Positions 34,927 through 35,961 of a DNA stretch of 60,906 nt are shown here, in pieces. The stretch covers positions 1 through 60,906 of the forward strand of contig NZ_RXIU01000001.1 in NCBI RefSeq assembly GCF_004217665.1. Direction: 5' to 3'. Each line of letters begins with the position of its first letter. Position 1 is the first letter of the stretch. The stretch comes from Candidatus Magnetaquicoccus inordinatus (lineage in GTDB: Bacteria; Pseudomonadota; Magnetococcia; Magnetococcales; Magnetaquicoccaceae). Under the pieces are notes generated by a model. The model saw only the letters and a program-made list of their open reading frames with translations, was not told the origin of the DNA and did no database searches. The position numbers were made by a program, and so were the translations under genes.

Positions 34927-35961
34927 ATGGCACGGCATAAAGTGTTGTTATGGCAGGCAGAGTTGACAGACCATGACCTGCTGGCAGTGCAGCAGCAACT
35001 GCGCCACGCTCCTTTTGTCGATCAGCAGACTCTCTCTCAGTGGGAAGGGTTGTGGGAGAAAGAGTGGCAACGCTTTGCTCTGGCCTTTGCCGATCCAGAG
35101 GAGTTGTTGCGTTCATTGCGTTTGTTGTTTGCCTGGCCACCCGGGCAGCCCTTTGCCTTGGATCCGTTTCTGGAGCCGATTTGGCAGGAGGCGGTCAGCG
35201 CCAACTCTCTTTGGCCCTGCTGGCCGGATCTGCAACCGTGCAGTGGTGAGCTGCGGCCTCCTTTTATCGATAGACAGGGGATGGTTGTGCCAGAGCTCTC
35301 CATAGCTCTGCAGTCGAGAGGCTGGCCGATGCCCGATACAAAACAGAGCCAACAACTGTGCATCGAGGAGATCTCTGCCACTCCGCTTGCCAATGGTCGC
35401 GGCGGAGAGGGGTGCATCCAACTCTATTTTGCTGGAGGTAATCAATGGCTGGCTGCCGGTGGCAGCGCTCTGTTGTTGACAGATGATGCAGCACTGTATG
35501 CACAATTGCGCACGTTGCGGCAACGCATCCCCACCCCTGTGGCCTGTGCCGTAGGTATTGCGCAATGGCGCTCCTTGCCACAGCGCTGGCAGCGGCGGCA
35601 AGAGTTGTGGACACGCTATCAGCAGTTGTTGCGTGGGCAGGGGTGCTGGCAATTGCCACAAGGGCAGCAAAGGGATCGTTGTTGGCCCTTCTATGGCTTG
35701 CGCCTTGCTTCACTCTCCCTGCGTCAGCAGTTGCAGGGCTATTTGCAACGGGTGGCCATCTCTGCTGCCCCACCCTGCTGGTTTACCCTGCCGGCAGAGG
35801 GAGCCTATTGGCCAGGCTGGCAGGCATTCAATGGACAGCGTTTGGCCATACCCTGTCATGCTGCTCTCGACGACAGGGAGCAGAAACATATTATCAACCG
35901 ACTTCATCGCTGGGTCTCTGCACACGGTTCAGCCCAGCTTGCCCTGGAGGGCGCACCATGA
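34927..35961 (+). CDS. Divergent DegT/DnrJ/EryC1-fold protein lacking the PLP lysine, 344 aa
   Basis: The sequence follows the plan of PLP-dependent sugar aminotransferases but is strongly degenerate. Residues 145-157 ([13 protein letters not shown]) align with the IEDxAxAhG segment. Residues 163-187 align without gaps to the FSFhptKxLttGEGGaivTnd segment, with Gln173 in place of the Schiff-base Lys and most glycines changed. Residues from about 213 ([15 protein letters not shown]...[10 protein letters not shown]) match the GLxQLxkLpxxxxxRrxxaxxY helix. The C-terminus ([21 protein letters not shown]) matches the LPlhpxLsdeeid motif. It is probably catalytically inactive as an aminotransferase; its role is unknown. 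Its stop overlaps the ligA start as ATGA, so it is co-translated with DNA ligase. There is no strong Shine-Dalgarno beyond GGTGGGGG. Confidence 0.6.

Follow-up and report, generated by a model that had tools for sequence, protein, structure and literature searches.

A Magnetococcales protein family with a predicted DegT fold and an eroded PLP site

The locus upstream of ligA

The window analysed here, a 60,906-nucleotide stretch of the Candidatus Magnetaquicoccus inordinatus genome, carries immediately before the NAD-dependent DNA ligase gene ligA an open reading frame for a 344-aa protein of predicted DegT fold that has no PLP site (Table 1). The frame and its coordinates are exactly those given in an earlier note made from the sequence of this DNA. 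The ATGA overlap described there is also real, spanning 35958-35961: the TGA of the DegT-fold gene occupies 35959-35961, the ATG of ligA starts at 35958, and a GGAGG was seen by eye upstream of this ATG at 35946-35950. The ligase gene itself is genuine, its product being complete with adenylation, OB, zinc, HhH and BRCT domains and scoring 856.5 bits against NF005932 (cut-off 369). Promoter and terminator scans gave nothing better than shuffled sequence. At the level of domain profiles, the DegT-fold protein matched PF01041 with 25.8 bits (Pfam cut-off 19.8) over residues 205-326 only, and its best match in NCBIfam was a weak one to PseC, with 28.3 bits vs a cut-off of 423.5. With a PF01041 score over the cut-off, automatic annotation would be apt to name the protein an aminotransferase despite a cofactor site lost throughout the lineage.

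Table 1 Features of the locus, with positions in the window
Feature	Position	Strand	Basis or remark
PNPOx_N-domain gene, upstream	33805..34353	+	45.5 bits, cut-off 28.1; upstream homologue in 7/7 genomes of the genus
Palindromic repeat of ~170 bp, dispersed, here in two tandem copies separating the PNPOx_N gene from the DegT-fold gene	34462..34801	not assigned	repeat and fold scans
DegT-fold protein gene without PLP site, 344 aa	34927..35961	+	ORF, PF01041, model, joint alignment
Gln173 codon, PLP-lysine position	35443..35445	+	family profile vs 3dr7, residue counts
Codons 205-206, site of ~22 residues present in ordinary DegT proteins and absent in the family	35539..35544	+	joint alignment
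C-terminal helix, residues 316-341	35872..35949	+	model, alignment, residue counts
Codons of K320, N324, R325, R328 and W329, family-specific invariant residues	35884-35913	+	residue counts
ligA, NAD-dependent DNA ligase	35958..38021	+	ATG overlaps the stop of the DegT-fold gene

Several other features of the window and of its repeats were recorded. The two tandem repeat copies match each other at 94% and are strongly palindromic (RNA fold z -6.3). At least 41 matches to the repeat are present in the M. inordinatus genome, each over at least 163 of 170 bases and with 92% identity or more, among 40 of 195 candidates scored. Genome G006 holds 43 matches, mostly of about 130 bases and more diverged, and the repeat was matched 12 times in G004, twice in G002, once in G001 and not at all in G003 and G005. 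The minus strand of the repeat resembles Rfam RT-15, far below the gathering score (28.6 vs 82 bits), and a search of the M. inordinatus genome gave no RVT_1 gene. Further upstream, positions 11805-31052 form a 6415-aa ORF of short repeats of the type LADTQLDGLTSxQL, and an ORF with related repeats was also matched upstream in four further members of the genus. It is followed by a gene for a TPR protein (31410-33818) that contains a 60-bp repeat of 2.5 copies in frame near the N-terminus (31446-31596) and a C-terminal glycosyltransferase-9 match just under the Pfam cut-off (21.7 vs 22 bits).

Predicted fold and cofactor site

The AlphaFold2 model of the 344-aa protein (pLDDT 89.6, pTM 0.88) matched TlmJ 5uid_A over 325 aligned residues (Foldseek E 7.1e-18; VIA Z 30.9, rmsd 3.0), and all 50 displayed structural matches were DegT-type sugar aminotransferases or dehydratases. 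An orthologue only 30% identical, from the closed genome G027 (4,719,581 bases), which we take to be that of Magnetococcus marinus MC-1, gave the same verdict, with a model of pLDDT 92.7 and a structural match of Z 32.8 and rmsd 2.8 over 318 aligned residues. Both models thus predict a whole-chain DegT/DnrJ/EryC1/StrS fold, as had been proposed from the letters, and a different fold, the outcome that the earlier note regarded as fatal to its claim, was rejected on the matches to DegT structures of Z 30.9 and 32.8. The family has this whole-chain fold in common with the sugar aminotransferases TlmJ (5uid), ArnB (1mdo), PseC (2fni) and perosamine synthase (3bn1/3dr7), at Z about 30, together with the general DegT positions E40, G73, G132, R224, Y231 and P309, each of which is found in at least 25 of 29 ordinary DegT controls. 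The match over the whole length and the presence of orthologues across the order place the observation well beyond chance.

For the cofactor site, residues were counted in a joint alignment of 38 orthologues and 29 ordinary DegT proteins of the same order as controls, two of which (L083 and L094) have no branch length between them and appear to be a single gene sampled twice, leaving 28 independent. The 38 rows leave out G018 (a 160-aa fragment), G014 (two fragments) and G048 (a non-orthologue). Against perosamine synthase 3dr7, the family profile gave an ungapped alignment across the active-site block, with 'GNK' opposite the consensus 'GNR', and the 344-aa protein reads GNQ at that block, so that Gln173 stands at the PLP-lysine position. 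Lys fills this column in 28 of the 29 controls, the last having His, and in a single orthologue (G033); the other 37 rows have Arg (14), Gly (8), Gln (6), Ala (6), His (1, G022), Ser (1) or a gap (1). Both the ungapped match of the segment around residue 173 and the missing lysine had been read correctly from the sequence. A lysine shifted to a nearby position, again named in advance as a refutation, is ruled out, each column from 158 to 191 having Lys in at most one of the 38 orthologues.

The erosion extends well beyond the lysine. The glycines of the GEGG motif had been described as lost, which holds for the last two, Ser and Ala in the 344-aa protein, and fails for the first, G178, which is kept (37/38); column 180 is Gly in 14/38 orthologues vs 27/29 controls and column 181 in 3/38 vs 29/29. 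The serine of the active block, Ser168, remains in 3/38 orthologues vs 29/29 controls. At the Ser/Asn-Gly-Thr motif that starts the PLP helix, which by comparison with ArnB we take to be the phosphate-binding site, the 344-aa protein reads D56-P57-E58, and Thr58 is found in 3/38 orthologues vs 27/29 controls. Column 83, presumably that of the residue stacking on the PLP ring as in ArnB, is Phe or Trp in all 29 controls and Glu, Asp or His in 33 of the 38 family rows. After position 205 the controls have on average 21.6 further residues vs 0 in the family, and the ~22-residue stretch that is missing would correspond, on our assumption from ArnB, to the cross-subunit loop. The acidic column which we likewise presume to face the PLP ring nitrogen is Asp in 29/29 controls and still acidic in 32/38 orthologues (Glu 17, Asp 15); G132 and R198, like G178, are each kept in 37/38. 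With this acid and these three residues retained, the family protein may still bind a ligand.

Distribution, descent and the C-terminal helix

With an orthologue defined as a profile match of E below 1e-30, the 38-row profile found one in 40 of the 48 genomes of the class; the 46 of 48 reached at E 0.001 also count ordinary DegT matches. The orthologue was present in every one of the 30 genomes that are at least 90% complete, although G018 yielded just a fragment at a contig end, and none of the eight genomes that lack it exceeds 84% completeness. Each genome that has it carries a single copy, apart from G014 with its two contig fragments. When 61 genomes were searched at the protein level, 41 gave matches. 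In a phylum set of 398 genomes, 48 of them from the order, no orthologue at E below 1e-30 was found in the 350 others, five candidates being scored per genome; with the same scoring, 15 of these 350 reached E 1e-12 or better (best 3.9e-24), and the five of those 15 proteins that were read are longer DegT proteins, G048's with the lysine and the other four without. All named matches (22/22) to one peptide pattern, taken from the C-terminal helix, came from MAGs of the Magnetococcales, an order of the Pseudomonadota. Plasmid records gave no match.

Orthologues are 25-56% identical to the 344-aa protein. The 38 aligned orthologues have open frames of 294-369 aa and nine residues invariant in all rows, and dN/dS was 0.10-0.35 in the ten closest pairs, which partly overlap and share members. 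Judged from these sequence comparisons, the family is under purifying selection. In a tree of 55 proteins the 21 sampled family members formed one clade (support 100/100), separated from the rest by the two branches that flank the midpoint root, 0.91 and 0.78 changes per column long. Long branches and uneven composition were flagged by the program for this tree.

The G048 protein (L070) was rejected as an orthologue because it has the canonical Lys and falls outside the family clade, although its placement in the tree is unsure. It has Gln319, Arg321, Arg328 and Trp329 in common with the family and may resemble the family's active ancestor, which we regard as a lead only. A search for similar proteins at E 1e-40 found them in five of 398 genomes, G048 itself included, and G048 is the only genome of its order.

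Part of what the family has gained lies at the C-terminus, in residues 316-341, the last helix of the AlphaFold2 model. K320, N324, R325, R328 and W329 are present in all 38 orthologues vs 0, 1, 1, 4 and 0 of the 29 controls, respectively. Elsewhere in the chain, F54 is invariant in the family (38/38 vs 4/29), and W86, W47 and W70 each occur in 37/38 orthologues vs 0/29 controls. The helix is amphipathic over residues 316-333, with hydrophobic residues 322, 323, 326 and 330 on one face and the invariant polar residues on the others. Although its conservation vector is short (0.63), this arrangement suggests that the invariant polar side may be an interaction surface. The repurposing that the earlier note suggested is upheld by the single clade, the purifying selection and the new invariant residues.

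Possible role and competing explanations

Very probably, the family protein does not act as a PLP aminotransferase. From the sugar aminotransferases considered above it differs in having no catalytic Lys, no Ser-Gly-Thr phosphate motif and no stacking aromatic, in the deletion of the ~22-residue loop, and in the invariant C-terminal helix, which is specific to the family. On balance, we favour the reading that it is a pseudoenzyme descended from a DegT/DnrJ/EryC1/StrS sugar aminotransferase and repurposed, by means of the new helix, as a non-catalytic binding or scaffold protein. Sequence and model comparisons show the whole DegT/DnrJ/EryC1/StrS fold kept, with the lysine, the phosphate motif, the stacking aromatic, the active-block serine, the GG turn and the ~22-residue loop lost across the order. 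On the favoured reading, PLP would no longer be used for transamination, and the protein would serve for binding or as a scaffold, perhaps still as a dimer. Its working surface would be the basic and polar side of the helix, formed by K320, R/K321, N324, R325, H/N327, R328 and W329, Trp86 might fill part of the former cofactor pocket, and candidate partners are another protein, a nucleic acid or a phosphorylated ligand. A more specific proposal, that an order-wide core protein with an emptied PLP fold became a regulator or adaptor through its invariant basic helix, with nucleic acid or a phosphorylated partner as a possible ligand, is speculative and, in our judgement, unlikely. PLP-fold pseudoenzymes are already known as a kind, and the Magnetococcales family would be a further variant, which we did not find described in the openly licensed literature. 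Should the protein prove to matter in magnetotactic cocci, it would provide a clear example, from bacteria, of a PLP sugar enzyme turned to a non-catalytic role, and the five invariant residues on one helix offer a sharply defined surface to test.

According to the strongest rival, the protein would pair with an ordinary DegT aminotransferase as the inactive subunit of a heterodimer, on the model of LCB1 and LCB2 in serine palmitoyltransferase. LCB1 belongs to a different branch of PLP enzymes and is, like the family, a PLP-enzyme homologue without the lysine that is kept by selection; it differs in having a known active partner. hLCB1 is reported to have no PLP lysine and to pair with hLCB2 (PMC3794620), and possible partners are at hand in the M. 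inordinatus genome, which has six strong ordinary PF01041 matches (318-408 bits); the weak best match to PseC fits this explanation as well. It is weakened by the missing loop. A study of 3-dehydratases (PMC8987622) describes how a loop from the second subunit completes a DegT-type active site. The stretch presumed to be the loop lent to the partner's active site is absent from the family. Moreover, an ordinary DegT gene was found in the fetched flanks of only one of 40 loci (G027, about 7 kb away). We therefore consider a heterodimer of this kind improbable, though worth keeping in mind.

Distinctly less probable is that the protein has remained an enzyme that dispenses with the Schiff-base lysine and uses PMP or some other ligand, in the way that the ColD and E1 3-dehydratases do with a histidine. 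The nucleotide-sugar 3-dehydratases ColD, E1 and SpnQ have, like the family, a DegT-type fold without the lysine, and according to PMC8987622 a catalytic His takes its place and the enzymes bind PMP and are active with it. The acidic ring-nitrogen position in 32/38 orthologues is compatible with such an activity, and one control DegT protein has His at the lysine column too. The family, however, has mostly Arg, Gly, Gln or Ala there and His in one row of 38, and thus no conserved acid-base residue at the site, and its phosphate motif, stacking residue and loop are all gone.

The gene neighbourhood raises two further explanations, one for each side of the gene. Flanks were fetched at unequal lengths, with under 1.5 kb upstream in G005, G001, G016 and G018 and under 1.5 kb downstream in G021. 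Upstream, thiC lies on the same strand in 16/39 loci, at under 100 bp in nine of them, and the one representative tested scored over the ThiC equivalog cut-offs, which speaks for a protein serving ThiC or thiamine synthesis. Against such a role, thiC is on another contig in 7/7 genomes of the genus, and the flanks fetched for 23/39 loci, four of them with under 1.5 kb upstream, contained no thiC; we rate the role as very unlikely. Downstream, a protein serving LigA, for instance as a co-translated DNA-binding accessory, would agree with the ATGA overlap, with ligA following the gene in 7/7 genomes of the genus, and with the basic character of the conserved helix. Across the order the link dissolves: ligA is downstream on the same strand in 16/39 loci, within 200 bp in 11/39 and overlapping in 3/39 (gaps measured to the first aligned LigA residue), and other loci have other neighbours, such as thiC, gltX or a glycan cluster. 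This explanation has hardly any probability left. The ligA linkage on which the earlier note placed weight is kept within the genus and found in a minority of loci across the order, and we rejected it as functional evidence. The neighbourhood as a whole points to no function.

In seven loci the gene has thiC on its upstream side and ligA on its downstream side, an arrangement that points to an inherited order thiC-X-ligA, later broken up, and the ligA link looks like inherited gene order rather than common function. Dependence on LigA or ThiC is unlikely for a gene that the order has retained through changes of neighbourhood. Among the other neighbours, gltX precedes the DegT-fold gene in G031, a phosphate-binding-like gene (identified by eye) precedes it in G024 and G033, and der starts about 2 kb downstream of it in G034. 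In G023 the family member (L066:7015-8058, minus strand) lies 3 bp after a gene for HprK-related kinase A (HprK_rel_A), in a cluster that includes an XrtA/PEP-CTERM glycosyltransferase; of the seven loci read closely, no other had a glycan context. Finally, a decaying DegT pseudogene, for which the low identity between orthologues might speak, was rejected as next to impossible on the open frames, the nine invariant residues and the low dN/dS.

Apart from the repurposed Magnetococcales family, a second group of DegT proteins without the lysine was observed in other Pseudomonadota (L129:5349-6593, L130:3533-4690, L132:5650-6846 and L131:4918-6111). It differs from the family in forming a separate clade (100/100), in keeping the ring-nitrogen Asp, in its greater length (385-414 aa as ORFs) and in its C-terminus, N(I/A/V)GAGAAIY. 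A search of the openly licensed literature for DegT proteins together with nif clusters found nothing; in L129, L130 and L132, nifB lies about 2-3 kb from the DegT gene.
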